Shown here in pieces: positions 5,961-62,274 of a stretch of 64,000 bases of DNA; position 1 is the stretch's first letter; each line of letters opens with the position of its first letter. The stretch comes from Dechloromonas sp. CZR5. Its GTDB lineage: Bacteria > Pseudomonadota > Gammaproteobacteria > Burkholderiales > Rhodocyclaceae. A program made the position numbers and the translations under genes. The notes beneath the pieces were generated by a model, which was not told the DNA's origin, made no database searches, and saw only the letters and a program-made list of their open reading frames with translations. The stretch covers positions 806,001 to 870,000 of the forward strand of contig NZ_VUYQ01000001.1 of the NCBI RefSeq assembly GCF_008711155.1. The letters are read 5' to 3'.

Positions 5961-7046
5961 TTACTCTGCGTAGGCCTTGGCAATGGCAACGAAGGTTTCG
6001 AAATCGCAGACGAAGGCTTCGACGATATCCGGATCGAAATGAATTCCCTTGCCGTCCAGTATGATCCGGTGGGCATGCTCGAAGGAGAACGCCGGCTTAT
6101 AGACGCGTTTGCAGGTCAGGGCGTCGAATACGTCGGCGAGCGCCATCAGGCGCGCGGCGATCGGGATGTCGTCGCCGGCCAGCCCGTCCGGATAGCCGCT
6201 GCCGTCCCATTTTTCGTGGTGCGAGCGGGCAATCATCTTGGCGATGGCGAGAAACTCGACGGGCTTGTCGGCGTCAGCTTCGGCCTGGGCAATGGCGTTG
6301 CTGCCGAGTTCGGCGTGGGTCTTCATGATTTCCCACTCTTCCGGCGTCAGTTTGCCGGGTTTGAGCAGGACGTGGTCGGGAATGCCTACCTTGCCGATGT
6401 CGTGCAGGGGGGCGGACTGGACCAGGGCATTGATGGTCCGCTGGTCGAGGTAGTGGGCAAAGCGCGGGTGCTGGCACAAGCGCTTGGCCAGGGTCAGGAT
6501 GTATTCCTGCGTCCGACGCAGATGCTTGCCGGTTTCCGGGTCGCGGGTTTCGGCCAGGCGGGCGAGGGCGTGGATGCTGACTTCCTGGATCAGCTGGTTT
6601 TCATGCATCCGGCGGGCCACCTCATTTTCGAGGAAGGCGTTCTGGTTGCTCAGGAAGTCTCTTGCCGCCTTGAGTTCGAGCTGGGTACGCACCCGGGCGA
6701 GGACGATGCTCGGGCGGATCGGCTTGGTGATGTAGTCGACGGCACCCAGGTCGAGGCCGCGCTCTTCGTCGGAGGTTCCGTCCATGGCGGTGACGAAGAT
6801 CACCGGAATGTTGCGCGTGACCCCGGATGCTTTCAACTCGCCGAGAACCTCGAAGCCATCCATTTCCGGCATCATCACATCGAGCAGAATGAGGTCGGGG
6901 GTCGGATCGGCCATCGCGATCTGGATGGCGCGTTTTCCCGAATTGGCAGCCCGGACTCGATAAGTCGGCTGCAGCAGTTCGCCCAGAACACTGAGATTCT
7001 CGGGCGTGTCGTCGACGATCAGTATGGTCGGTGGGCGGATATCCAT
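5961..7046 (-). CDS. Response regulator with HD-GYP phosphodiesterase domain
   Basis: This is a two-domain regulator of 361 residues: an N-terminal receiver with acidic pocket D12/D13 and phospho-acceptor D56 (LILLDVMMP), a short helical linker, and a C-terminal HD-GYP domain. The catalytic HD pair is H215/D216 ([11 protein letters not shown]), and [11 protein letters not shown] spans about 276-286, so the enzyme should be able to hydrolyse cyclic di-GMP. The family is RpfG-like. The ATG at 7046 was chosen because it has a GGA element 8 bases upstream; a TTG four codons earlier is also possible. It is the first gene of a probable two-gene operon with the large hybrid kinase, whose HPt domain could phosphorylate this receiver. 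Confidence 0.92.
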
Positions 7047-7102
7047 GCGCAAGTCCAATCGCCCTTGAGTGGCGAGTTTGCGAGAATTATCACATTACTG
7101 TA

Positions 7103-7131
7103 ATAGTATTGCCAGCTTTAATCTTTGTTAA
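7103..7131 (-). promoter_or_regulatory. Predicted sigma-70 promoter of the HD-GYP/kinase operon
   Basis: On the minus strand a TTAACA -35 element and a TACTAT -10 element are separated by 17 bases, about 60 bases upstream of the HD-GYP start. The surrounding AT-rich stretch stands out from the GC-rich background. It sits inside a 9-base inverted repeat (7080-7088 and 7131-7139). Confidence 0.45.
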
Positions 7132-7161
7132 ATTCTCGCTCCGGCGGGGCGGACGGGCGGG

Positions 7162-8016
7162 TCACTTGCCGACAATACGGCGGTAGATTGCGAAACGATT
7201 CCGGTCGATCTTGCCACTGTCCACCGCTGTGGTCAGCGCACAGCCGGGTTCGCGGTCATGCTGGCAGTCGCGGAATCGGCAGTGGCCGAGGTATTCCCGG
7301 AATTCCGGGAAGGCGTTTTCGATTTCCTGGCGGTCGAGATGACCAAGACCGAATTCCTGCAGACCCGGGGAGTCGATCAGGTCGCTGTCCGCATCCAGGT
7401 GATAGAGCGTGGCATGCGTGGTGGTGTGCTTGCCGGAATCGAGCGCCTGCGAGATTTCGCGTGTCGCGGCGTTGGCTTCCGGGATCAGTGCATTGACCAG
7501 CGTCGATTTGCCCATGCCGGACTGGCCGACCAGGACGCTGGTCTTGCCGGCCAGGTGGGGGCGCAGGTCTTCGGCGTGGTCGCGGGCCGACAGTTCGAGG
7601 ATCGGATAGTCGAGCGCCGCCAGGGTGGCCAGGCGCGCGCGGGCCGCCGGCAGCTTGTCTGCCAGGTCGCACTTGTTGAGTACGATCAGCGGCGCGATTT
7701 CCTCGCTTTCGGCGGCGAGCAGGGCGCGGGCAACCAGTTCGTCGGAGAAGGCCGGCTCGGTGGCGACGACGATGACGATCTGGTCGACGTTGGCGGCAAT
7801 CAGTTTCTGGCGGATTTCGTTGGAGCGATAGAGCAGGCTGCTGCGTGGCTGGATCGCCTCGACGACGCCCTGGTCGTCCGAGGTGCGCTGGATGTCGACG
7901 CGGTCGCCGCAGGCGATTTCACTTTTCTTGCCGCGCGGAAAACAGGGCAAGCGGGTGCCGTCGGGCAGTTCGACCATGTATTGCCGGCCGTGCGCGGCGA
8001 TGACTCTGCCTTCCAT
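7162..8016 (-). CDS. rsgA: Ribosome small subunit-dependent GTPase A
   Basis: RsgA is a circularly permuted GTPase that acts late in 30S subunit maturation. The 284-residue protein has an N-terminal OB fold, then the permuted motif order: G4 NKCD (114-117), G1 GQSGMGKST (164-172) and G3 DSPG (215-218). A C-terminal zinc site uses C246, C251, H253 and C259. Length and motifs are normal for the family. Its ATG shares one base with the stop codon of the upstream M48 protease gene, so the two are translationally coupled. Confidence 0.97.
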   Translation of the reverse strand: MEGRVIAAHGRQYMVELPDGTRLPCFPRGKKSEIACGDRVDIQRTSDDQGVVEAIQPRSSLLYRSNEIRQKLIAANVDQIVIVVATEPAFSDELVARALLAAESEEIAPLIVLNKCDLADKLPAARARLATLAALDYPILELSARDHAEDLRPHLAGKTSVLVGQSGMGKSTLVNALIPEANAATREISQALDSGKHTTTHATLYHLDADSDLIDSPGLQEFGLGHLDRQEIENAFPEFREYLGHCRFRDCQHDREPGCALTTAVDSGKIDRNRFAIYRRIVGK

Positions 8017-50274: not shown

Positions 50275-53200
50275 TCAGTTGACCGGATTTTCCGCCGTCT
50301 CGATTTCCGGCACCTGGCCGGATTTGTCGGTGAATCGATCGAGGTAGATATAGACGACCGGCGTCAGGTAGAGCGTCAGGAGCTGCGACAGCATCAAGCC
50401 ACCGACCACGGCCAGACCGAGCGGTTGCCGCACTTCCGCACCGGCGCCGATGCCCAGGGCGATGGGCAGGGTGCCGACCAGGGCGGCCATGGTGGTCATC
50501 ATGATCGGTCGGAAGCGGACCAGGCTGGCCTGGAAGATGGCGTCATGGGGCTGGGCGCCCTCCTTGCGCTGCTTTTCCAGGGCGAAGTCGATCATCATGA
50601 TGGCGTTTTTCTTGACGATGCCGATCAGCATGATGACGCCGACGAAAGCGTAGAGACTGAGGTCGACCTTGAAGATGAGCAGGGTGATCAGCGCACCAAG
50701 ACCGGCGGAGGGCAGACCGGAGAGGATGGTCAGCGGATGAATGAAGCTTTCGTACAGCACGCCGAGCACCAGGTAGACGACCAGCACGGCGACGAGCAGG
50801 AGGATGCCGAGCCCCTGCAGCGAAGACTGGAAGGCCTGGGCGGTGCCCTGCAGGCTGGTGGCCAGCGAGACCGGGACGCGGATTTCCTGCTCGAGCGCCT
50901 TGATGCGATCGACGGCATCGCCCAGCGAGACGCCGGGCAACAGGTTGAAGGAGATGGTGACGGATGGCAGCTGCCCTTGGTGATTGACGGTCAGCGCCTG
51001 TGTCTTGCGCGTGAAGCGGGCGACGGTATCGAGCGGAATCAGCTTGCCGTTGCCGCGCACGTAGATGCGCGACAGGACCTGCGGGTCGGCCTGGTATTCC
51101 GGTGCAACCTCAAGAATGACCTGGTATTGCGCCGTGGAGCCGTAGATGGTGGATACCTGGCGGGCGCTGAAGGCGCTCTGCAGGGCATCCTCGACCTGTC
51201 CGAAGGTGAGTCCGAGCGAGGACAGCTTGTCGCGGTCGATGTCGATACCGACCACCGGGCTGAGGTTGCTCAGGTTGTTGGTGACGTCGACGAAGCCGGG
51301 CAACTGGCGGATCTTCTGGGTCAGCGTGCCGGTCCATTCGTACAGCTCGTCCAGGTCGGTGTCCTGCAGCGTGTATTGGTATTGCGCTGCGGTGATCTGG
51401 CCGCCGATACGGATCACCGGCGGGTTCTGCATGTACACCTTGATGCCGGGAACCGCCGCCAGTTTGGGGCGCAGGCGCTGGATGATCTGGTCCGGCATCG
51501 ATTTCCGCTCGCTGGCCGGCTTGAGGATCATGAACACCGTGCCGGTATTGGCTGTCGGGCGGATGCCGCCGGCGCCGACGGACGACATGAAGGAGGCGAT
51601 GTCCGGTTCCTGGGCGACGATGTCCGCTACCGCACGCTGGTGGGCGACCATCGCGGTAAAGGAGGCATCCTGCGCCCCTTCGGTGAAGGCGATGATCTGG
51701 CCGGAGTCGCCGCTCGGGATGAAATCCTTGGGCACGTGCGTGAACAGGTAGCCGGTAAGCAGCAGCGTGGCGACAAAGCTGGCCAGGATGGTTCGCGGGT
51801 GGCTCATTGCCAGGCGCAACGTCTTCTCGTAGCCGGCATGGAGGCTTTCGAAGAAGCGCTCGAAGAGCTGGAAGACTCGGCCATGCGAATCCGGCTCGGC
51901 GTGGCGCACATAGCGGCTGCACAGCATGGGTGTCAGGGTCAGCGAGACGAAGCCGGACACCAGGATGGCAACGCAGATGGTGACCGCGAATTCGTGGAGC
52001 AGCCGGCCGACGATGCCCTGCATGAAGAGCACCGGAATGAACACGGCAATCAGCGAGATGGTCATTGAGATGATGGTGAAGCCGATCTCCTTGGCTCCCT
52101 TGATCGCCGCCTGGAACGGCGGTTCGCCGGCCTCGACGTGGCGGACGATGTTCTCCAGCATGACGATGGCGTCGTCGACGACGAAGCCGACCGACAGCGT
52201 CAGGGCGAGCAGCGACAGGTTGTCCAGGCTGTAGCCGAGCACCGACATGGCGGCAAAGGTGCCGACGACCGAGATCGGTAGCGCCAGGCTGGGGATGACG
52301 GTGGCCGAGAGATTGCGCAGGAAAAGCAGGATGACCAGGATGACCAGCACCGCCGACAGGATCAGCGTGAATTGCACGTCGTCGATGGCGTGGCGGATCG
52401 AATGGCTGCGGTCGAACAGGATATTCATGTTCACCGCGGCCGGCAGCTTGGATTGGAAGGATGGCAGGACGCGCTTGATGGCGTCGACCGTCTCGATGGT
52501 GTTGGCGCCGGGCTGGCGCTGGATGGCCAGCACGATGGCGCGCTTGTCGACGTTCCAGCTGGCGATGCGGATGTTTTCGACGCTGTCGATGGGGGTGGCC
52601 ACGTCCTCCAGGCGTACCGGGGCGCCATTGCGCCAGGTGACGATGAGCGGCCGGTAGGCAGCGGCATCGTTCAGCTGGCCGTTGTCCTTGAGGGCGAAGG
52701 TCTGGCGGCTGCCGTCGAGCTGGCCGACGGGCTGGTTGACGTTGCCCTGGGCGATGGCCTGCTGCAGCTCGTCAATGCCGATGCCGCGGGCGGCGAGCTG
52801 GTCCGGGTTGGCCTGGACACGCACGGCGTACTTCTGCGAGCCGTAGATCAGCACCTGGGCGACGCCGGGGATGGTGGATAGCCGCTGGGCCAGCTGGGTT
52901 TCGGCGTATTCGTGGACCAGCGACAGGGGCAGGGTCGGCGACGACATGGCGATGTAGAAGATCGGCGAGTCGGCCGGGTTGACCTTGCGGAAGGAGGGGG
53001 GCGTCGGCATGTTGGGCGGCAGCTTGCGCTGGGCCGCCGAAATGGCCGACTGTACGTCTTGAGCCGCCGCGTCGATGTTGCGGTCGAGGGCGAACTGCAG
53101 GGTAATGGTGGTCGATCCCTGGGCGCTGGTCGATGTCATCGAGTCCAGCCCGGCGATGGTCGAGAACTGGCCTTCGAGCGGCGTCGCGACGGCGGCGGCC

Positions 53201-53376
53201 ATGGTCTCCGGCGAGGCGCCGGGCAGGCTGGCGCTGACCGAGATGGTCGGGAAATCGACGGCCGGCAGTTCGGAAACCGGGAGCGAACGGTAGCCGATGA
53301 TGCCGAAGATCAGTAGTGCCACCATCAGCAGGGTGGTCATCACCGGTCGCCGGATGCACAGTTCAGGTAGGGTCAT
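50275..53376 (-). CDS. RND multidrug efflux permease (MdtB/MdtC-like)
   Basis: This 1033-residue inner-membrane pump has twelve expected helices and two large periplasmic loops. It starts MTLPELCIRRPVMTTLLMVALL and carries the proton-relay aspartates in FVVDDAIVMLENI. It resembles the MdtB/MdtC branch of the HAE1 family rather than AcrB. The adaptor gene lies 9 bases upstream in the same direction. No outer-membrane channel gene is adjacent, so a TolC-like protein elsewhere is needed. Substrate is not evident. Confidence 0.93.
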   Translation of the reverse strand: MTLPELCIRRPVMTTLLMVALLIFGIIGYRSLPVSELPAVDFPTISVSASLPGASPETMAAAVATPLEGQFSTIAGLDSMTSTSAQGSTTITLQFALDRNIDAAAQDVQSAISAAQRKLPPNMPTPPSFRKVNPADSPIFYIAMSSPTLPLSLVHEYAETQLAQRLSTIPGVAQVLIYGSQKYAVRVQANPDQLAARGIGIDELQQAIAQGNVNQPVGQLDGSRQTFALKDNGQLNDAAAYRPLIVTWRNGAPVRLEDVATPIDSVENIRIASWNVDKRAIVLAIQRQPGANTIETVDAIKRVLPSFQSKLPAAVNMNILFDRSHSIRHAIDDVQFTLILSAVLVILVILLFLRNLSATVIPSLALPISVVGTFAAMSVLGYSLDNLSLLALTLSVGFVVDDAIVMLENIVRHVEAGEPPFQAAIKGAKEIGFTIISMTISLIAVFIPVLFMQGIVGRLLHEFAVTICVAILVSGFVSLTLTPMLCSRYVRHAEPDSHGRVFQLFERFFESLHAGYEKTLRLAMSHPRTILASFVATLLLTGYLFTHVPKDFIPSGDSGQIIAFTEGAQDASFTAMVAHQRAVADIVAQEPDIASFMSSVGAGGIRPTANTGTVFMILKPASERKSMPDQIIQRLRPKLAAVPGIKVYMQNPPVIRIGGQITAAQYQYTLQDTDLDELYEWTGTLTQKIRQLPGFVDVTNNLSNLSPVVGIDIDRDKLSSLGLTFGQVEDALQSAFSARQVSTIYGSTAQYQVILEVAPEYQADPQVLSRIYVRGNGKLIPLDTVARFTRKTQALTVNHQGQLPSVTISFNLLPGVSLGDAVDRIKALEQEIRVPVSLATSLQGTAQAFQSSLQGLGILLLVAVLVVYLVLGVLYESFIHPLTILSGLPSAGLGALITLLIFKVDLSLYAFVGVIMLIGIVKKNAIMMIDFALEKQRKEGAQPHDAIFQASLVRFRPIMMTTMAALVGTLPIALGIGAGAEVRQPLGLAVVGGLMLSQLLTLYLTPVVYIYLDRFTDKSGQVPEIETAENPVN

Positions 53377-53385
53377 GAATGTCCC

Positions 53386-54543
53386 TTATTTGGCCGGTGC
53401 GGCCGTAGCGGAAGGGGCCGCTCCAGCGGCCGGCTTCGCCATGACGGTGGCGCCCGGCGCCAGGCGCAGCTGGCCGTCGGTGACCACCGTTTCGCCGGCC
53501 GCCACGCCCTTGCCGATGGCCGTCATGCCCTGGTGGCTGGCGACGATCTCGAGTTTGCGGACTTCGACCGTGTCGTCGCCTTTGACGACGTACAGGAAAT
53601 TGCCTTCGGCGCCCTGCTGGATCGCCTCGTTCGGTACGAGGACCACGCCGGTGGCCTTGTCGAGCATCATGCTGACGTTCAGGAACTGGCCCGGCGTCAG
53701 GCGTGCCTGCTTGTTGTCGAGCACCGCCTTCATCTGGACGGTGCCGGTGGTGGCATCGACCGCGTTGTCGATGAAGCGTGCCTTGGCCTCGAAGGCAACC
53801 TGTTTGTTCCCCGGCAACGCCAGTTGCACGGTCATCGGGCCCTTGCTGACCGCCCGGTGCAGGGTCTGCAGATGCCGTTCCGGGACGGCGAAGCCGACAT
53901 AGAGCGGATCGACGCGATTGACGACCGCCAGCGCCGTGTCGTTGATCTTGACCGTCGAGCCAGGAAAGACCAGGCGAGCGCCGACGATGCCCGAGAAGGG
54001 CGCGCGCACGGCGGTGTAGGAAACCTGCAGGCGGGCCAGTTCGAGGGCCGCCTGGTCGGCCTTGAGCGTGGCGGCGGCGGCCACCTCGTTGGTGCGGATT
54101 TCGTTGACCTTCTCGTCAGAGACGAAGCCGCGCGCCTTCAGCCCCTGGTAACGCTCCAGGTCGGCCCGTGCCTTGGCGAGTTGCGCCTGGTCACGGGCCA
54201 CCACGGCCTCGGCCTGCGCCACGCGGGCCTCGAAATCGGCCGGGTCGAGGCGAACCAGGACATCGCCCTGCTTGACGGATTGTCCCTCGGTGAAAGCGAC
54301 CGACAGCACCTGGCCGTCCACGCGCGACTTGACGGTGACGCCCTCGTAGGCTTCGGCCCGCCCGACGACATTCAGGAACACCGGCATCTCGCCGCTCTCC
54401 GCCCGGGCGACGATCACGGGTACTGGCGGGGCGGTCTTGGCAGGGGCGGGTGTGGCCGTTTTCTGGACGGTCCACCACCAGACAGTGCCGCCGAACAGGG
54501 CGGCGATGACGAGGGTGGTGAGCGGTTTCTTGAGCTTGGGCAT
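53386..54543 (-). CDS. RND periplasmic adaptor protein (MdtA-like)
   Basis: This is a 385-residue membrane fusion protein that bridges the pump and the outer-membrane channel. An N-terminal anchor (LTTLVIAALFGGTVWWW) is followed by a lipoyl-like half (VKSRVDGQVLSVAFTEGQSVKQGD), a helical hairpin and a beta-barrel domain; the C-terminal tail is alanine/proline rich. The ATG at 54543 (MPKLKKPL) was chosen for its anchor. It is followed by the permease gene with a 9-base gap. The 186 bases upstream hold no gene. Confidence 0.92.
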   Translation of the reverse strand: MPKLKKPLTTLVIAALFGGTVWWWTVQKTATPAPAKTAPPVPVIVARAESGEMPVFLNVVGRAEAYEGVTVKSRVDGQVLSVAFTEGQSVKQGDVLVRLDPADFEARVAQAEAVVARDQAQLAKARADLERYQGLKARGFVSDEKVNEIRTNEVAAAATLKADQAALELARLQVSYTAVRAPFSGIVGARLVFPGSTVKINDTALAVVNRVDPLYVGFAVPERHLQTLHRAVSKGPMTVQLALPGNKQVAFEAKARFIDNAVDATTGTVQMKAVLDNKQARLTPGQFLNVSMMLDKATGVVLVPNEAIQQGAEGNFLYVVKGDDTVEVRKLEIVASHQGMTAIGKGVAAGETVVTDGQLRLAPGATVMAKPAAGAAPSATAAPAK

Positions 54544-54729
54544 GGTCGAAGCAGCGGGGCGGTGGGAGCGAGTCGGGTGGCGTCCGGGACAGGGCACCGG
54601 TAGCGTGCCGTCCATTGGTGACGAATCCTAGCATGCCCCAGGGGCGGCGGCTTGCAGGCGCGGCGCTCGACCGGCGCATCGGGGACTCAGCCCTTCCCCG
54701 TGCGCATCGCGCCTACGCTGCGACAGGGG

Positions 54730-55398
54730 TTAGGCGAGTAGCCGGCGGAGGCCGAGCAGGATCAGGACGGCGGCCGATGCCCAGATCAGCCAGCGCGACA
54801 GCCAGGGGCGGCCGACGCGCAGTTCGCGGCCGAGCCGGCCGGCGAGGGGGACGAGGATGAGGATCGGCGTCATCGCGGCCCCGAGGCCGAAGGCCAGGCC
54901 GTAGCTGGCCCCGGAGAGGGCGCTGCCGCTCTGGGCGGCGAGGGCCAGCAAAGAGGCGAGCGGCGTGCACGGGGTAAGGGCCAGGGTGGCGCCCAGTGCG
55001 AAGGGGGGCGCGGCGTCGGCGCGGCGCTGAAAGCGCACGGGCTGGGCGGTCGGGCGCTTTGGTCGGCATCCGGCGACGTGGGCGCGTACGATGAGCCACA
55101 GCCCGGCGCCGATACTGGCGCCGCCGATCAACGCATTGCCCCAGGTGCCGCCCAGCAGCCGGGCGAGGTGCAGCCCGGCCATTCCGGCCGACGTGGCGAG
55201 CAGGGTGTACATCAGTACCCGGCCAGCGAGGAAGACAGCGGTATGGCGGAAGGCTTCCGCCGTGCCGCTGGAGCGGCCGAGCGCCCAGGTACCCATGAAG
55301 GGGAGACAGGTGACGGTGCACGCCGTCAGGCCCATCGAGACGCCGAGCAGCCAGACGGTGCCGAGACCGACATGGCCGGCCGCAAGGTCATCGAGCAT
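54730..55398 (-). CDS. SafE/DsbD_2-type membrane protein (TauE/SafE-like family)
   Basis: This is a 222-residue protein with about six transmembrane helices. The first helix has C27 and C31 (TACTVTCLP) and the fourth has C144 (LTPCTPLASLL), a layout like the thiol-carrying helices of DsbD/CcdA, so it may pass electrons or metal across the inner membrane. Members of this family next to CcoG-like polyferredoxins occur in cytochrome oxidase assembly loci. It is the last gene of the TonB operon and overlaps the polyferredoxin gene by 11 bases. Confidence 0.8.
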   Translation of the reverse strand: MLDDLAAGHVGLGTVWLLGVSMGLTACTVTCLPFMGTWALGRSSGTAEAFRHTAVFLAGRVLMYTLLATSAGMAGLHLARLLGGTWGNALIGGASIGAGLWLIVRAHVAGCRPKRPTAQPVRFQRRADAAPPFALGATLALTPCTPLASLLALAAQSGSALSGASYGLAFGLGAAMTPILILVPLAGRLGRELRVGRPWLSRWLIWASAAVLILLGLRRLLA

Positions 55399-56446
55399 CG
55401 GCCGCCTCGTCGCGCTGCATGAAACGTAACGGCTTGACGCTGCCATCCGGCAATTCGCTGCGTACCTTGTCCTTGTAGTAGGCGCGGCGCGACGAGAACA
55501 GGGCAAGCGGCCCCCATTTCAGCCGGATCGTCCCGTCCTGCGGGCAGTATTCGGCGCACCGTCCGCACAGCGTGCAATCCTCGGTATAGGCCTTGCGTCC
55601 GGCTTGCTGCGATATTTCCTCAATATCCATGGGGCAGGCATCGCTGCAGATGCGGCACTGACCGCAGTTGGCGTGCGCTGTCTTGACCAGGCGCAGCGGC
55701 GACAGGCGCTGGAACAGCGCGTTGAAGGCGAGCAGCGGGCAGATGCGGCAGAAGGGCTGGCGGATGGCCAGGCCGCCGACGATCATGAAACCGATCAGGA
55801 AGTCGGCGGCGGCGCCGAGCGCAAAGCTCCAGCCATCGCCGACGCGCAGGGCGAGCTGATCGGTGTTGCCGGTAAGCAGCGTGGTGGCGACGCGCGACGG
55901 GCAGATGTCGCAGTAGGGATTGCCAAGCGCATGAGGCGTCACGCCAAGGCCGGTGAGCAGGGGCAGCAGGAAGACCAGTCCGAGCAGAAGCAGCCACTTG
56001 ACCGGACGCACCCGGTGCGCGGCGAGCAAGTCGGCGGACGTCAGTCGGCGCAGGCCGATCCCGAAGCGGCGACCGATCCGCCCGACGACTTCCTGCAGGG
56101 TGCCCAGGGGGCAGACCCAGCCGCAGAACGCCTTGCCGAGCACGAAGAAGAAGGCGAAGAAGGCGAGGAAGCTCATCAGCAGCGGCAGGATCATCGACAG
56201 GGTCAGTTGCTGGGCGCGCACCATCGCCTCGCCGATGCGATGGTGCAGGATGTGCTGGGTGGGGATCAGCACGCAGTAGCCCCCGTTCATCTGGTCGTAG
56301 GCGCAGGACAGCGCGGGCAAGGCGTTGGAGATCTTGCCGGCCATGTAGGTGCCGACCAGGACGCTGCCGTAGACGGTGACGAAGAGCATCGCCAGCTGGA
56401 TCGCGAAGCGCAGCCGGGAGAGTGTGGGAATGAGGGTTTTCAACAC
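55388..56446 (-). CDS. Membrane-anchored 4Fe-4S polyferredoxin (NosR/NapH/CcoG-like)
   Basis: This 352-residue protein has about five transmembrane helices. The membrane part holds C108-x3-C112P (FCGWVCPLG), C179-x2-C182 and C233-x2-C236 motifs, as in NosR and NapH. The C-terminal part carries two ferredoxin-type clusters: C261-x2-C264-x2-C267-x3-C271P and C291-x2-C294-x2-C297-x3-C301P. It should conduct electrons from the membrane to a periplasmic or metal substrate. The start is a GTG with AAAGGAG upstream. It overlaps both operon neighbours. Confidence 0.9.
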   Translation of the reverse strand: MLKTLIPTLSRLRFAIQLAMLFVTVYGSVLVGTYMAGKISNALPALSCAYDQMNGGYCVLIPTQHILHHRIGEAMVRAQQLTLSMILPLLMSFLAFFAFFFVLGKAFCGWVCPLGTLQEVVGRIGRRFGIGLRRLTSADLLAAHRVRPVKWLLLLGLVFLLPLLTGLGVTPHALGNPYCDICPSRVATTLLTGNTDQLALRVGDGWSFALGAAADFLIGFMIVGGLAIRQPFCRICPLLAFNALFQRLSPLRLVKTAHANCGQCRICSDACPMDIEEISQQAGRKAYTEDCTLCGRCAEYCPQDGTIRLKWGPLALFSSRRAYYKDKVRSELPDGSVKPLRFMQRDEAADAR

Positions 56447-57273
56447 GATGACTCCTTTGCGGGGCGACGGCGTAGCAGCGGCAAGGCGCCGAGCATGCCG
56501 GCAAGGCCGAAGACGGCCCCCCAGCCGAGGCTGCGGCCGCGTTCGCTGTCCGGTGCGTAGGTGTGGTTGAACGAGGTCACGAAATGCCGGCCCGCCTCCT
56601 GGCGCTCGGTGCTCAGCACGAATCCGGCCTTCGCCCGGGCATGCCCGTCACCCTCGGTATCGGGTGGAAAGTCGCGCGGGAAGAGGACGGTGGCGATGCC
56701 TTCGGTGTCCGTTGTGAACGCCGTTCGCGTGCCGCGCTCGGTTTCCATGCGGACGATCTGGCCGGCCAGGGGACGTCCCTCGTAACGAACGATGAAGCGC
56801 CATTTCTCGCTTTCGCGATAGCTGGCGTGCTCGCGCGGCAGCGGATCGGGGACGATCTCCAGTTCGTTCTTGATGCGGCGCAACAGGTCGACCGGAGCGG
56901 GGCCCGGGTTGCTCGCATACCAGATGGTCGAGGCGATCGCCACATGGGCAGGTGTTTCGGCACGGGCGCTCAGCCAGTGGTAATTGCCGGATTCCGGGGC
57001 CGGGCTGCGCAGGCGGGCGACGCCGGCCTCGACCGGAAAAGCCTGTTCGCCGCCGCGCGGGCCGAAGACGTGGATCTCGCTTGCATTCAGTCCGACCGGC
57101 CGGTACGGCGCCGTCGTGCGATCGCCGCGATTGCCCGCAGCGGCGACGATCAGCGCCTGCCCGGTCCATGGTGGGGCGGCGCTGCCCGGTGCGGCGGGGT
57201 GGCGGTCGTGCGACTGGGCGAGCGACAGGCTGCTGGCCAGTGCCAGGGCCAGCATCGATACGGTACGGTGCAT
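56440..57273 (-). CDS. DUF4198 family periplasmic protein with C-terminal anchor
   Basis: This 277-residue protein has a signal peptide and a His-containing N-terminus (SHDRHPA), a beta-rich DUF4198 domain with EIHVFGPRGGEQAFPVEAG, LEIVPDPLPREHASY and FIVRYEGRPLAGQIVRMETERG cut by turns, and a C-terminal hydrophobic helix ending RRRPAKESSC. DUF4198 occurs in periplasmic components of nickel and cobalt uptake, so metal handling is likely. AGGAG lies before the ATG. It is 9 bases after the TonB receptor. Confidence 0.83.
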   Translation of the reverse strand: MHRTVSMLALALASSLSLAQSHDRHPAAPGSAAPPWTGQALIVAAAGNRGDRTTAPYRPVGLNASEIHVFGPRGGEQAFPVEAGVARLRSPAPESGNYHWLSARAETPAHVAIASTIWYASNPGPAPVDLLRRIKNELEIVPDPLPREHASYRESEKWRFIVRYEGRPLAGQIVRMETERGTRTAFTTDTEGIATVLFPRDFPPDTEGDGHARAKAGFVLSTERQEAGRHFVTSFNHTYAPDSERGRSLGWGAVFGLAGMLGALPLLRRRPAKESSC

Positions 57274-57282
57274 GGCGTTCTC

Positions 57283-59382
57283 CTAGCGGAAGTCGTAGCG
57301 ATAGGTCAGCATCAGCGCGCGCGGGGCGCCGACCGTGTAGGTGACCCGGCCGGTCGTGTCCTTCTTGGCTTCGGCGGCGTAACGCTGGTTGAACAGGTTG
57401 TCGGCGTTGAGCGTCAATGAATGCTGGTTCAGCTGGTAGCCTATCGAGGCGTTGGCTATCCATTCCCAGCCTTCGTATTTCTGCGTGTTGGCGCTGTCCA
57501 TCCAGTACTCGCCCCAAGTGTTGGCCGACAGGCGTGCGCGCCAGCCGCCCTGCCTCCAGCCGGCGAAGACGCCATACTGGTGGCGCGGCACGAAGGGCAG
57601 CGCATTGCCCGCCCGTTGCTGGTTGACGGTGGCGGCACCGACGCGCACCGGTTCCGAGAACTCCGTATAGCGGTAGCGCGTATGGCTGTAGTAGCCGCCG
57701 ATTTCCCAGTGCTTGTCCAAGGCGTAGCGACCGGCGAACTCGAAGCCTTTCTTGTCGGTCTTGCCCGCGTTGAGGTAGGTCGTCACGCCGCCGTTGCTCT
57801 GCTGCACGATGTCCTTGCTCACCGGGTTGACGTAGGCGCTGGCGTCGATGGACCAGTTGTCGGCGCGGGCCTTCAGGCCCAGTTCGTAGTTGCGGGCGAC
57901 CGGGGCCTCCAGCGCCGGGTTGGTCGAGACCTCGCTGAACGAGGGAATCTGGCCCGCCTGGGCAGCCATCGCGAAGATGTTCAGGCCGGGTTGCAGGCGG
58001 TAGCTTGCGGCGATTTTGGGTGCCGGCAGATGGAAGGTCTTGCTGATCTGTGTCGATCCGGCGCCGGCGACGTAGCGGCCGGAAGCGTAGTCGTACTTGC
58101 GGAACTGCCGGTTGTTGTCGTCGAAGTCGACGACGTCGTAGCGCAGGCCGGCGTCGACGATCCAGCGTTCGTTCGGCCGCCAGGATTCCTGCACATAGAC
58201 GCCCGTCAGCAGGGTCGTCGCGTCGTCGATTTCCGCGAGTCGTCCCCTGGCGTCGGATCGTGTGGCGACGATGCGGCCGCCTGCCGTGGCGACATCGCGG
58301 TACTCGTACTTGCGCGAATCGGGTGCGCGCTCACGGCGCGCCGTGACGCCAGCGACGAGCGTCCCTCCGGCATGGCGGTAGTTGCCTTCGATATCGACCC
58401 CGAGATTGGAAACCCAGGATTCTGTTTCGTTGATGAGTCCGGTGACCGGATGGTAGTGGTACCAGGTGTTGTAGTAGAGGCGGGGCTTGAAGGTGAAGTC
58501 GCCGCGGCGCATTTCCAGTCGGCTGTTGAGGAACCAGACCTTGGAGTAGCGTCCCGAGTGTTTCCAGGCCTCCGGGGTGCCGTTCTGCTTGCCGGTTCGC
58601 TTGAAGGTCTGGAACAGGGTCTCGTCGACTGCCCCGGGGAGCTGCATGTTGGATTCGGCGTAGGAAATCTCGCTCTCGATGACGTCCGATTCATTGATCT
58701 GGAGGCCGTGCTTGAGCGATGCCTGCGTCGTGTCGAAGCGGTTCCAGAAGCGCCAGTCATTGTCCATTTCGCGGCGGGTAACCGTCAGGGCCAGGGCCTG
58801 GCGGTCGTCGACCATGCCGCCGACGCGCAGGTGGTAGTTCTGCGTCCCCGACGTGCCGGCGCCGATCTTGAGATTGTTGGCCCGGTTGTCGAACACCGAC
58901 TTGGAGATGATCTGGATGGCGCCGCCGGCGCTGCCCGCGGCAAACAGGTTGCCGGGACCCTTGGCGATCTCGATGCGCTCGATGTCCTGTGTGTCGACGA
59001 AATCGAGGCGGGTGAAGCTGTCGGGGTCGGAGAGAGGGACGCCGTCGCGCAGCACCTGGATTTCGCGGATTCCGAATGCCGCCTTGAGGCCGGCGCCACG
59101 GATGATCAGGCGGGCGTCGAAGCCGCCGTTCTTGCTGTCGACCAGCACGCCGGGAACCTCCTGCAAGGCTTCCTTGACGTTGAACATCTTCTTGTCGGCC
59201 AGCGTTTCCTTGCCGACGACAGCGATGGCCTGCGGTACCTCACCGGTGGCGCGCGTTTCCCGCGTCGCGGTGACCGAGACTTCGTCGAACACCTTGGCGA
59301 CATCGCCCGCCAGTGCGCCGCCCGTTGCCAGCGAGCAGGCGCAGAGCACCCCGCAGGGCAGCAATCCCTTTTTCTGTTTCAT
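57283..59382 (-). CDS. TonB-dependent outer-membrane receptor, first gene of a four-gene operon
   Basis: This is a 699-residue receptor with a signal peptide, a plug domain (VAVVGKETLADKK through GPGNLFAAGSAGGAIQI), a 22-strand barrel and a C-terminal aromatic end (LMLTYRYDFR). A TonB-box-like EVSVTATRE stands at the mature N-terminus. AGGGGAG precedes the ATG. Its ligand is unknown; the operon partners suggest a metal or metal complex. It leads the unit TonB receptor-DUF4198-polyferredoxin-SafE. Confidence 0.93.
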   Translation of the reverse strand: MKQKKGLLPCGVLCACSLATGGALAGDVAKVFDEVSVTATRETRATGEVPQAIAVVGKETLADKKMFNVKEALQEVPGVLVDSKNGGFDARLIIRGAGLKAAFGIREIQVLRDGVPLSDPDSFTRLDFVDTQDIERIEIAKGPGNLFAAGSAGGAIQIISKSVFDNRANNLKIGAGTSGTQNYHLRVGGMVDDRQALALTVTRREMDNDWRFWNRFDTTQASLKHGLQINESDVIESEISYAESNMQLPGAVDETLFQTFKRTGKQNGTPEAWKHSGRYSKVWFLNSRLEMRRGDFTFKPRLYYNTWYHYHPVTGLINETESWVSNLGVDIEGNYRHAGGTLVAGVTARRERAPDSRKYEYRDVATAGGRIVATRSDARGRLAEIDDATTLLTGVYVQESWRPNERWIVDAGLRYDVVDFDDNNRQFRKYDYASGRYVAGAGSTQISKTFHLPAPKIAASYRLQPGLNIFAMAAQAGQIPSFSEVSTNPALEAPVARNYELGLKARADNWSIDASAYVNPVSKDIVQQSNGGVTTYLNAGKTDKKGFEFAGRYALDKHWEIGGYYSHTRYRYTEFSEPVRVGAATVNQQRAGNALPFVPRHQYGVFAGWRQGGWRARLSANTWGEYWMDSANTQKYEGWEWIANASIGYQLNQHSLTLNADNLFNQRYAAEAKKDTTGRVTYTVGAPRALMLTYRYDFR

Positions 59383-59446
59383 GAACTCCCCTTGTGTCGT
59401 TTTTTGAAATTTGGGGAATGGTAGTGATCGCCCATGGGGCAGGGCA

Positions 59447-59476
59447 GTGACACGTTGTCACATGCGGCAACGTGTC
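59447..59476. promoter_or_regulatory. Nested inverted repeats upstream of the TonB-DUF4198 operon
   Basis: GACACGTTG (59449-59457) and CAACGTGTC (59468-59476) form perfect 9-base arms, 10 bases apart. The left arm is also part of a 15-base palindrome GTGACA-CGT-TGTCAC (59447-59461). It is a candidate binding site for a dimeric repressor or two adjacent dimers. Confidence 0.5.
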
Positions 59477-59708
59477 GCAGAAATACGCATACTGCATGGA
59501 AATGACGGTCTTTCTGCGCGTTAACGCCCGGCAGTGGGGAAAAACGGGGTAACGGGATTAACGTCGGGGCAGTTGCTGTGCATAATCCGGTATTTTTCTG
59601 GCGGACGGTTTCGGGGCGGTCGCCGCCTGCTGCTTCAATCCGTGCCAATCCGCGCAGTACCTGGATCTGATTATGATTTTTTCATCTTTGGTGATGTCGT
59701 CGATAGCG

Positions 59709-59730
59709 ACTCCCCGCGTCGGGAGTTTTT
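59709..59730 (+). promoter_or_regulatory. Terminator-like hairpin that covers the ribosome-binding site of the second TonB gene
   Basis: ACTCCC (59709-59714) pairs with GGGAGT (59721-59726) and is followed by T residues. GGGAG is also the only Shine-Dalgarno element for the TTG start at 59732, so folding would hide it or stop transcription. Confidence 0.45.
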
Positions 59731-59731
59731 C

Positions 59732-61726
59732 TTGACGCTGCGTGTCCATCGACATCGGTCTGTATCCGGCGCTCTGCTGCGTCTTGGCGTGCTGGCTGCC
59801 GCTCTTGCCGGCCGGGTGGCACTGGCAGCAGGCCCGGCCGACCTGAGCGCCGTGCCCTTTGATCAGCTGGTCCAGCGCGAGGTCGTGTCCGCATCAGCGC
59901 TGGTGCGTCAGATCAGCAACTCACCGTCCGCCGTGGCCATCGTGACGGCCGACGACATCCGCGCCTATGGCTATCGCACCCTGGCCGATGTCATCAGCAG
60001 CATGCGCGGCCTGTATACGACCAATGACCGCCGCTATCAGTACATGGGCGGGCGGGGCTTCGGTGCGCCGGGGGACTATACCGGCCGCATCATGGTGCTT
60101 ATCGACGGTTACCAGACGCAGGATCCGTTGTTCAACCAGGCCTACATCGACGAGTCGGGATTGATCGACCTGGCGCTGGTCGAGCGCGTCGAGTACGTGC
60201 CCGGCACCGGGTCGGTGATCTACGGCAACAATGCCATGCTGGGCATCATCAACATCGTCACCCGCAAGGGGAGCGATTTCAACACCTTGCAGCTTTCCAG
60301 CGAGGCGGGTAGCCACGATACCTATCGCCAGCGCGCGACTTTCGGCAAACGCTTCGATAACGGCGCCGACGTCCTGCTCTCGGCGTCGTCCCTGCAATCG
60401 CAGGGGCAGAATCTCCATTTTCCGGCCTACGACACCCCGGCCAACAATCATGGCTGGGCAAACGGGATCGACGACGAAAGGAACCGGCGCGTTTTCGGCA
60501 AGTTCTCCTACGAGGGATTCACGGTCGAGGCTGCACATGTCGAACGCCGGAAAACGGTACCGACCAAGCCGATGAAACTCGCCGTCTTCAATACGCCTTT
60601 TGTCATCGACGACGAAAACAGCTATTTGAACGTCAGCTACGAGACCGATCTGGGGCTGCACCTGTATTCCACATCGCGTCTATATTTCGGTCGCTATGCC
60701 TATGACAGCCAGCGGACCATCGACGATGCGGCTTCCAATGCCCAGCGCAAGCACCGGGCGGAATGGTGGGGCCTCGACCAGAAATTCGTCGGGAAATGGT
60801 TTGCCCATCATTCGATCATGTTTGGCATGGAGTATCGGAACGACTACAACCAGTATCTGAGTCGGTCGTACTGGTATCCCGATGGGCGGATCGATGCGGC
60901 CAGCAGCGTCAAGGACGCATACTCGCGAAACACGACCAGCTTCTACCTGGCCGACGAGTATCGCTTCCATGAGCGCTGGCGGCTCAATGTCGGCGCGCGC
61001 TACGACAAGGCCAGCGACCTGGAAGGCAACTGGAGTCCGCGCGTGGCGCTGATTTATCAGCCCGGTTTCCGGACCACGTTGAAGGCCAGCTATAGCGAGG
61101 CTTTCCGCATGCCCAATGCCGACGATCGCTCGTTCTACCTTTCGGGAACCGCACCCGAATACGTGGTGGCCAAGGAGTTTGCCATCCAGCACGACCTGGA
61201 CCGGCGGATGCGGATGACCGGCACGCTCTACGAATACCGGCGCAGCAAGCAGCAGGTCTATATCAGCGATGGGCATTACGTGCCGACCGGTAGCAGTCTG
61301 GCGCGCGGCCTGGAGCTGGAGTTCGAGGCGCGCTGGGATAACGGCGTGCGCGCCCGCAGCAGCGGCGCCTGGCAGCACTCGACCGACATCGCCGGCCTGG
61401 ATGCGGTGAATTCTCCCAACGTGCTGGGAAAATTCCAGGTTTCCGCACCGTTGCCAGGTAAGGGCGTGCGCGTCGGCATCGAGGCACAATACCTCGGTTC
61501 CCGCCTGACGGATGAACGCCGCCGCCTGGGCGGCGTAGCGCTGGCCAACCTGACTTTCTCCAGCGAACGGAAGTGGAACGGATTGTCGGCCTCGTTCAGT
61601 ATCCGCAACCTGTTCGACCGCGACTACGAGGTCGTTTCACCCTTCACCTGGGCACCGGGAACCGGTATCGATGCTTTGCGCATGGATGGCCGGACCTACT
61701 GGTTCCAGATCAACTACGATCTCTGA
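59732..61726 (+). CDS. TonB-dependent receptor paired with a YfiR-family gene
   Basis: This is a 664-residue outer-membrane receptor. It has a signal peptide (ending VALAAG), the segment LSAVPFDQLVQREVVSAS common in receptors of this class, a plug domain (GRIMVLIDGYQTQDP, GTGSVIYGNNAMLGIINIVT) and a barrel ending WFQINYDL. The start is a TTG at 59732 with GGGAG 7 bases upstream; the upstream open frame adds no recognisable sequence. A YfiR-family gene follows after 8 bases, a pairing seen in many proteobacteria. Ligand unknown. Confidence 0.88.
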   Translation: MTLRVHRHRSVSGALLRLGVLAAALAGRVALAAGPADLSAVPFDQLVQREVVSASALVRQISNSPSAVAIVTADDIRAYGYRTLADVISSMRGLYTTNDRRYQYMGGRGFGAPGDYTGRIMVLIDGYQTQDPLFNQAYIDESGLIDLALVERVEYVPGTGSVIYGNNAMLGIINIVTRKGSDFNTLQLSSEAGSHDTYRQRATFGKRFDNGADVLLSASSLQSQGQNLHFPAYDTPANNHGWANGIDDERNRRVFGKFSYEGFTVEAAHVERRKTVPTKPMKLAVFNTPFVIDDENSYLNVSYETDLGLHLYSTSRLYFGRYAYDSQRTIDDAASNAQRKHRAEWWGLDQKFVGKWFAHHSIMFGMEYRNDYNQYLSRSYWYPDGRIDAASSVKDAYSRNTTSFYLADEYRFHERWRLNVGARYDKASDLEGNWSPRVALIYQPGFRTTLKASYSEAFRMPNADDRSFYLSGTAPEYVVAKEFAIQHDLDRRMRMTGTLYEYRRSKQQVYISDGHYVPTGSSLARGLELEFEARWDNGVRARSSGAWQHSTDIAGLDAVNSPNVLGKFQVSAPLPGKGVRVGIEAQYLGSRLTDERRRLGGVALANLTFSSERKWNGLSASFSIRNLFDRDYEVVSPFTWAPGTGIDALRMDGRTYWFQINYDL

Positions 61727-61734
61727 GTCCGGTG

Positions 61735-62274
61735 ATGCGAGCGCTTCTGCTTCTATTGGGGTTCTGGATCAGCCTGGCGGCCAACGCGCAGGGGGTGTCC
61801 GAACATGACATGAAGGCTGCCTACCTGTACAACTTCGCCCACCTTTTCGAATGGCCGGAATCGCGGCGTGCCAATTTCCACATCTGCATTCTGGGCGACG
61901 AAGAGGTGGGTGCAGCCATGCAGGGGTATGACGAAAAGCGGGTCAATGGCCAGCGCATGGTCATCGCCCGGCTGAGCACGACGACGCCTATCCGCCTGTG
62001 CGATATCCTCTACGTCGGGGCCGCCGCAGTGGGCAATCTGCCGAAAATCCGCTCGATGCTGGGCGGCCAGCCGACCCTGACCGTTGCCGACAGGGCTCCG
62101 CTGCAGTCGGTGGCGGTGGCGCTGGCGCTGGAAAACCAGCACCTGATGTTCGATGTCAATCTCGAGCATTGCGAGCGCGCCAGTCTCAAACCCAAGCTGA
62201 TCGTTCTGGGGTTGGCGCGCTTGGTACGCAAGGCTGCTGAAGGCGAACCCAAGGGGAGTGCCGTTCCGCGCTAG
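61735..62274 (+). CDS. YfiR/DUF4154 family periplasmic protein
   Basis: This is a 179-residue exported protein of the YfiR family. A signal peptide (LLLLLGFWISLAANA) precedes the hallmark KAAYLYNFAHLFEWPE. YfiR in Pseudomonas and E. coli is a periplasmic repressor of the diguanylate cyclase YfiN. Here no YfiN-like gene follows; the next gene is convergent cysN. Cysteines occur in FHICILGDEE, IRLCDIL and LEHCERA. It is co-transcribed with the TonB receptor. Confidence 0.88.
   Translation: MRALLLLLGFWISLAANAQGVSEHDMKAAYLYNFAHLFEWPESRRANFHICILGDEEVGAAMQGYDEKRVNGQRMVIARLSTTTPIRLCDILYVGAAAVGNLPKIRSMLGGQPTLTVADRAPLQSVAVALALENQHLMFDVNLEHCERASLKPKLIVLGLARLVRKAAEGEPKGSAVPR

Follow-up and report, generated by a model that had tools for sequence, protein, structure and literature searches.

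A conserved receptor and polyferredoxin operon of Dechloromonas sp. CZR5, a candidate system for copper acquisition and reduction

This analysis concerns a four-gene operon of Dechloromonas sp. CZR5, located on the minus strand at 54730-59382 of the window (the whole stretch of 64,000 nucleotides that was analysed; contig NZ_VUYQ01000001.1, positions 806,001 to 870,000). According to open reading frame (ORF) analysis, it encodes a TonB-dependent receptor, a DUF4198-like protein, a polyferredoxin and a DsbD_2/SafE-like protein. The exact spacings between the four successive genes are 9, -7 and -11 bases, and the compact co-directional arrangement described in the original prediction is thus confirmed. 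Most likely, this module is a receptor-plus-reductase type of metal uptake system, for copper. In the following, L numbers denote fetched loci and G numbers denote genomes, with G000 for the strain's own genome; the gene calls in the loci and many gene names were assigned in this analysis. The features of the operon and its promoter are as follows (aa, amino acids; bp, base pairs).

57283..59382, minus strand: TonB-dependent outer-membrane receptor, 699 aa, with Pfam barrel (PF00593) and plug (PF07715) domains
56440..57273, minus strand: DUF4198-like periplasmic protein, 277 aa (weak PF10670 match, hydropathy and alignments)
55388..56446, minus strand: polyferredoxin, 352 aa, GTG start, candidate transmembrane metal reductase (Pfam Fer4_5 and Fer4_10)
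56252..56305, minus strand: loop C48-x9-C58-x5-Q64-H65 of the polyferredoxin, predicted to be periplasmic (alignment A1 and pattern search)
55901..55912, minus strand: Cys pair C179-x2-C182 of the polyferredoxin, predicted to be periplasmic (invariant in the alignments; topology by eye from hydropathy)
55544..55666, minus strand: ferredoxin dicluster C261 to C301 of the polyferredoxin, predicted to be cytoplasmic (Fer4_10 match at 259-302)
54730..55398, minus strand: DsbD_2/SafE-like membrane protein, 222 aa, ATG start (PF13386)
59464..59478, no strand assigned: RegA/RegR-type palindrome GCGACACGTTGCCGC, 82-96 bp upstream of the receptor start codon
59447..59461, no strand assigned: second palindrome GTGACAACGTGTCAC, adjoining the first (pattern search)

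A search with the DUF4198-like protein gave matches in 16 of 250 order genomes and 32 of 398 phylum genomes, the strain's own genome being counted in both; the phylum matches G447, G473 and G518 fall outside the set of loci fetched as larger stretches. The trio of DUF4198-like protein, polyferredoxin and SafE-like protein stands together, that is, on one strand and within 3 to 3.5 kb, in 13 of 15 further order loci and in 24 of 26 fetched phylum loci. A neighbourhood limited to close relatives, which the original prediction had named as refuting it, is thus not what is observed. Among the 13, L026 has an extra gene between the polyferredoxin and SafE genes, and L037 has an ORF on the opposite strand between the DUF and polyferredoxin genes. 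The remaining two order loci (L038 and L039) carry a diverged DUF-like protein alongside the polyferredoxin and SafE, while the two phylum exceptions are on short contigs, L069 stopping inside the polyferredoxin and L079 having only the DUF gene at its edge. Five loci taken from genome contigs, Dechloromonas agitata included, contain the same trio. The receptor accompanies the module in 14 of 15 order and 25 of 26 phylum loci, and a TonB-type gene is nearby in 10 of 15 and 18 of 26, respectively, with TonB-ExbB-ExbD often in the cluster. Because this synteny is preserved throughout the phylum, the operon is not a chance arrangement. No description of the gene set was found in the open-access literature, nor in the accessible portions of PMC6769254, PMC5955497 and PMC9426467.

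The polyferredoxin has four membrane helices by hydropathy and three CxxC/CxxxC pairs (C108/C112, C179/C182 and C233/C236). These three pairs had been noted in the original prediction, but the first periplasmic loop contains one more invariant pair, C48/C58 with QH65 after it, that had been overlooked. In alignment A1 (16 polyferredoxin sequences, identity down to 29%), there is no variation at C48, C58, Q64, H65, C108, C112, C179, C182, C233 and C236, nor at any of the eight ferredoxin cysteines. The pattern C-x(8,12)-C-x(4,6)-QH is present in all 43 clustered polyferredoxins, and it was not seen by eye in two CcoG proteins of relatives and the NapH-like protein of the own genome. Judged from hydropathy and the cytoplasmic place expected of the dicluster, C48, C58, H65, C179 and C182 would face the periplasm, and the CxxxCP pairs and the dicluster would face the cytoplasm; this predicted topology is the layout expected for a transmembrane reductase.

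Regarding its family, the polyferredoxin scores 62.7 bits with the NapH/MauN model TIGR02163, below the cut-off of 213, and the CcoG model TIGR02745 (cut-off 316.7 bits) is not among the 25 listed of its 33 matches. The module polyferredoxins of G106 and G187 reach only 18.8 and 21.6 bits with TIGR02745, and in 21 of 23 module genomes a true CcoG above cut-off is encoded elsewhere. Assignment to CcoG was rejected on these scores, on the separate CcoG genes and on the loop motif not seen in the inspected CcoG proteins, and the earlier label "CcoG-type" had to be given up for a protein that scores nearer to NapH. The own genome has four CcoG copies above cut-off. For the polyferredoxin, a search of solved structures gave nothing beyond short ferredoxin matches, and for the DUF4198-like and SafE-like proteins it gave no match.

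The SafE-like protein matches DsbD_2 (PF13386) with 69.4 bits, above the gathering cut-off of 24.9, and has six membrane helices by hydropathy. Its mechanical ORF begins upstream at 55506 and yields 258 aa; in this numbering the CxxxC of helix 1 (C63 and C67) is kept in 38 of 38 members and the later C180 in 37 of 38. The role of inner-membrane transporter, proposed for it in the original prediction, is one possibility: the protein may move Cu(I), or may equally carry electrons.

The DUF4198-like protein has a signal peptide (by eye), a single C-terminal membrane anchor (hydropathy) and a histidine close to the mature N terminus, and H99 and R147-E148-H149 are conserved, as judged from a 38-member alignment and from alignment A4. 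Its weak PF10670 match covers the C-terminal part of that family. Full DUF4198 membership was rejected, since all four proteins tested are under the gathering cut-off of 34 bits (21.1 for the window, 30.3 for L036, 24.3 for L083 and 18.0 for L038). In ten f79 loci (L077, L078, L080, L081, L083, L084 and L087-L090), a small protein lies between the receptor and the DUF gene, and the L080 copy, the only one tested, matches LTXXQ and is Spy/CpxP-like.

For the receptor, the nearest solved structures are PqqU/YncD (6v81/9c4o, E about 1e-30 by phmmer). The PqqU model gives 134 bits with a cut-off of 1200, which is too distant for the substrate of PqqU/YncD to be transferred. Siderophore-receptor models are also matched, all below cut-off. 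The copper receptor model TIGR01778 (OprC/NosA, cut-off 472 bits) is absent from the 21 model matches of the window receptor, and none of its 27 PDB matches bears the name CrtA or BfrG.

The palindrome in the promoter follows the pattern GCGRCAnnnTGYCGC, which we take to be a box of the RegA/PrrA/RegR type; by this consensus, the module promoter of the window contains it. With at most one mismatch, the box lies upstream of 18 of 37 usable operons, compared with 3.4% of 2520 control windows, and a second count gives 17 of 38 upstream regions compared with 3.7% of 760 controls; in the first count, the control windows came from whole loci and consist largely of coding sequence, and each operon was scored by the best among as many as six upstream regions, which tilts the comparison towards the box. 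Of the 47 loci, ten are outside that first count: L031, L075 and L079 contain no clustered polyferredoxin, L008 was handled by hand and has no row, and L005, L007, L032, L039, L087 and L090 have no usable upstream gap in the rough gene calls. The box is nonetheless present in L005, L008 and L032. In L005, from Dechloromonas agitata, a 539-aa transposase-like ORF (6232-7851) sits between two divergent receptors and separates the module from its box at 6140. Upstream of the box-less module operons L071, L076, L082 and L085, a repeated motif around TGTGTGATTTGCCACA was seen by eye.

As for other regulators, perfect FNR boxes occur in three of the 38 upstream regions (L025, L027 and L028) and in none of the 760 controls. 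Boxes of Fur, NikR, Zur, CueR and MntR are not clearly enriched over the 38 regions, NikR being at background; Zur-like matches with two mismatches are found in 4 of 38 regions compared with 5% of controls. Control by an Rfam riboswitch was rejected, as the Rfam scan of the window returned two tRNAs only.

The same box recurs at genes of copper enzymes and copper handling. Among the 19 perfect sites of the own genome, those upstream of the module, of nosZ and of the TonB-ExbB-ExbD operon stand out, and the rest are mostly inside ORFs. Perfect boxes in promoter position are found at nosZ (twice), nosL and a receptor beside the module in G150 (13 examined), at the module and coxB in G043 (7 examined), at the module, the copper-storage gene Csp1 and an RND operon in G258 (4 examined, the fourth in L083), and at the module and a PAS protein in G292 (2 examined). 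The remaining perfect boxes of the fully surveyed genomes are in or at the edge of ORFs, or unclear in position. In addition, perfect boxes precede ccoN in G071, Csp1 in G266, and in G024 a copper receptor of TIGR01778 accompanied by PCuAC-like genes and a sensor kinase. Boxes of G106, G024 and G071 were picked by eye, mostly for AT-rich spacers (3 of 10 beyond the two in the module locus, 3 of 11 and 3 of 9, respectively), and G273 sites were left out of the box-by-box survey. The identities of nosL and of the G024 PCuAC-like genes are our own reading, with no NCBIfam match at 1e-10 for NosL and the single PCuAC-like protein tested, while the PCuAC of the own genome has a clear Pfam match. 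The reversed pattern, used as control, gives 3 sites against 13 for the box in G150, 6 against 9 in G071, and 174 against 302 at one mismatch in G000; in G029, a loose control without a DUF match, there are 13 boxes and 6 reversed ones. Many perfect matches inside long ORFs of these GC-rich genomes are probably due to chance. Two of the 15 order loci and six of the 26 phylum loci include RegB-like genes within the stretch fetched, and near nosZ and a PCuAC gene the own genome has RegB- and RegA-like genes whose best matches, NF033792 and NF033791, stay under their cut-offs.

The second line of evidence is Csp1 (TIGR04401), which is above cut-off in 18 of 43 module genomes, with 19 copies. Five genomes from three families (G071, G348, G289, G258 and G266) have it no more than about 12 kb from the module, whereas about 0.15 such proximities are expected by chance (own arithmetic; 19 copies, random placement, genomes of about 3 Mb). 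In G266, Csp1 immediately precedes RegB and RegA in the same orientation, behind its own box, and in G258 it carries the box and is on the strand of the module. Apart from the module itself, Csp1 is the only metal-specific cluster recognised by eye among the 40 largest neighbour clusters.

From the above, we judge that the operon is rather probably a copper acquisition and reduction system serving respiratory cuproenzymes. The conserved gene set supports the original prediction of metal import with periplasmic reduction. The metal, which had been left open, is most likely copper rather than nickel or iron, because the box is shared with genes of cuproenzymes and copper handling and because Csp1 lies close by; the Met-rich DUF counterparts in L038 and L039 also support copper. 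For the mechanism, we infer that the receptor would import a Cu(II) chelate, energised by TonB-ExbB-ExbD, a set that is preceded by the box elsewhere in the own genome and lies inside the cluster in many relatives. At the inner membrane, this complex or the ion would pass to the anchored DUF4198-like protein. Electrons of a cytoplasmic donor would run along the ferredoxin clusters and CxxxCP pairs of the polyferredoxin to the periplasmic C48/C58/C179/C182/H65 site, where Cu(II) might be reduced to Cu(I). The SafE/DsbD_2 protein would then provide the periplasmic chaperones PCuAC and NosL with Cu(I) or, by way of its thiols, with reducing equivalents, and these chaperones would supply nitrous oxide (N2O) reductase and the haem-copper oxidases. 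Transcription would be under redox regulators of the RegBA type, plus FNR in some relatives.

Several points weigh against this interpretation. RegA is a global redox regulator, so a box shared with cuproenzymes may reflect respiration and not copper. At one mismatch, 19 of 37 operons have no box, including the f87 loci L071, L074, L076, L082 and L085, and the match counted for L038, one of the 18, lies where a neighbouring gene begins. In G243, seven perfect boxes were examined and none is at a recognised copper-related gene, and promoter boxes also stand at genes with no evident copper link, such as those of a PAS protein (L131), an Mrp-like protein (L166) and a cold-shock protein (L145). 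Csp1 is elsewhere or on another contig in 13 of the 18 genomes that bear it, and the own genome has none. The operon of L068 has a Fur-like match with two mismatches, and the nearest characterised relatives of the receptor transport pyrroloquinoline quinone (PQQ) or siderophores. To our knowledge, no member of the module has been tested experimentally.

The alternative that survives best, although we regard it as rather unlikely, is a periplasmic reducing system for cuproenzyme maturation, in which the polyferredoxin and SafE feed electrons to thiols or apo-enzymes and the receptor is no more than a co-regulated metal importer. The membership of SafE in the DsbD_2 family with conserved cysteines is consistent with it, as is a thioredoxin-like c18 gene in four loci (weak Pfam match), and in the available part of PMC13038864 Bordetella CrpH acts in copper use rather than uptake. 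However, the close linkage of the trio to the receptor, often together with TonB-ExbB-ExbD, points to import.

Ferric-siderophore uptake is likewise unlikely. Here the receptor would import an iron chelate, the polyferredoxin would replace FtrD or a PepSY-type reductase as the periplasmic Fe(III) reductase, and the emptied chelator would be recycled by an RND pump. Polyferredoxins do occur in FtrABCD iron transport, and the below-cut-off matches of the receptor to siderophore-receptor models, the RND genes beside the module in several lineages and the Fur-like match upstream of L068 are in line with such a role. But Fur-like scores are otherwise at background over the 38 upstream regions, no Ftr1-like permease or ferrous transporter is among the four genes or was recognised by eye in the 40 largest neighbour clusters, and the shared box and Csp1 indicate copper.

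Nickel or cobalt uptake, the lead that the original prediction drew from DUF4198, is quite improbable now. Nickel uptake needs no reductase, inspection of the neighbour clusters by eye revealed no gene for a nickel enzyme or nickel transport, and NikR boxes do not exceed background. In the part of PMC12537917 that was available, a DUF4198 protein binds nickel with a dissociation constant of 18 nM, and DUF4198 genes neighbour TonB receptors and NikR; but the module protein is below the DUF4198 cut-off, and the N-terminal histidine of those nickel-binding proteins has no conserved column in the module alignment (cleavage sites judged by eye). Uptake followed by reduction of some other redox-active ligand, organic or not, for example a PQQ-like cofactor, is very improbable, for although PqqU/YncD are the nearest solved receptors, the PqqU score is far below its cut-off and no cofactor-linked enzyme was recognised as recurrent beside the module.

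The module also has variants. In L038 (6645-9716) and L039 (6738-9782), the polyferredoxin is followed by a double-cubane-cluster reductase and its ATP-dependent activase, and then by SafE; the L038 reductase matches NF040772 with 367.7 bits (cut-off 350), and the L039 protein was assigned by similarity only. A Sulfurovum plasmid from another phylum (L093, 8959-15037) contains a receptor, SafE, two 4Fe-4S proteins, a double-cubane pair with a below-cut-off match (321.9 bits) and an RND permease. Spread by plasmids was rejected, this being the only plasmid record (E 1e-5). In such variants, very low-potential electrons may feed the same type of polyferredoxin. Tentatively, the modules might be a widespread class of their own for copper acquisition in Pseudomonadota, with a ferredoxin-fed transmembrane wire whose periplasmic Cys/His site reduces the imported copper chelate; one branch (L038, L039 and, in another phylum, Sulfurovum) would be fed by an ATP-driven double-cubane reductase. 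If so, very low-potential electrons would be spent on obtaining a metal.

Little is known of how Gram-negative bacteria acquire copper, a metal required by N2O reductase, which is the principal biological sink for N2O, a greenhouse gas. The module may be a common, apparently undescribed route that feeds copper to respiratory enzymes, with sets of the same core in distant bacteria. In Dechloromonas/Azonexus relatives, an operon sharing its box with nosZ in the own genome would offer a direct genetic handle on the copper supply to N2O reductase.

In the window, the operon is followed downstream by one further co-directional feature.

50275..54615, minus strand: RND pump adaptor and MdtB/C-like permease (profile matches)

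This pair is a possible accessory of the operon, of uncertain membership, and recycling of a chelator is one possibility for its role. RND genes are also close to the module in L080, L089 and the Sulfurovum locus, and the RND operon of G258 (L132) is the one preceded by the RegA-type box. On the other side, a divergent TOL_0244-related receptor and a TOL_0243-related YfiR-like protein (59534-62274, both below cut-off) use one common intergenic region with the module promoter. In L029 (12199-16042) and L032 (12220-16255), a second receptor, a BNR-repeat protein with CECC and CPHHGG motifs and a thioredoxin-like protein lie behind a box of their own.

Compared with known systems, the polyferredoxin resembles NapH/MauN (TIGR02163) and NosR in its four membrane helices, two CxxxCP motifs and C-terminal dicluster, but the NapH-like protein of the own genome shows no periplasmic Cys/QH motif by eye. 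FtrABCD iron transport, with the polyferredoxin FtrD, also places a polyferredoxin in a metal-uptake operon, but the Pfam scan found no P19, cupredoxin or Ftr1 permease in the module operon. With regard to regulation, RegR controls nos and copCAB in Bradyrhizobium, and such a regulator can therefore cover both cuproenzymes and copper handling, whereas no operon of the module type appears in that regulon in the accessible part of the source (PMC4064962). The nickel-binding IsDUF4198, as described in the excerpt at hand (PMC12537917), shares with the module protein a periplasmic place near TonB receptors, and the module protein matches PF10670 weakly at the C terminus; it differs by the lack of a conserved N-terminal His column and by its C-terminal membrane anchor.

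The closest parallel in logic is CrtA-CrpH of Bordetella pertussis, a TonB-dependent copper importer with an inner-membrane protein suspected to be a periplasmic copper reductase, sometimes with ExbBD-TonB and with a tie to respiratory oxidases, as far as the available portions of PMC12914433 and PMC13038864 describe it. CrpH is a haem-dependent PepSY_TM protein there, whereas the module has an iron-sulfur polyferredoxin and adds DUF4198-like and SafE-like proteins; CrtA is compared by description, not by sequence. No PepSY_TM protein was found in the Pfam scan of the four operon genes, and no minus-strand ORF of at least 90 aa lies within 59383-59920 where a CruR (DUF2946) leader was sought, judged by ORF size without a DUF2946 model, so the resemblance is in logic and not in parts. 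CcoG, the known bacterial cupric reductase in the part of PMC7558416 at hand, is likewise a membrane polyferredoxin with CxxxCP motifs and a ferredoxin dicluster. The module polyferredoxin is shorter than CcoG (352 compared with about 480 aa), has the extra periplasmic Cys/QH motif and coexists with CcoG. It is a candidate for another class of metal reductase, next to PepSY_TM proteins and CcoG, and its motif is accessible to mutation.

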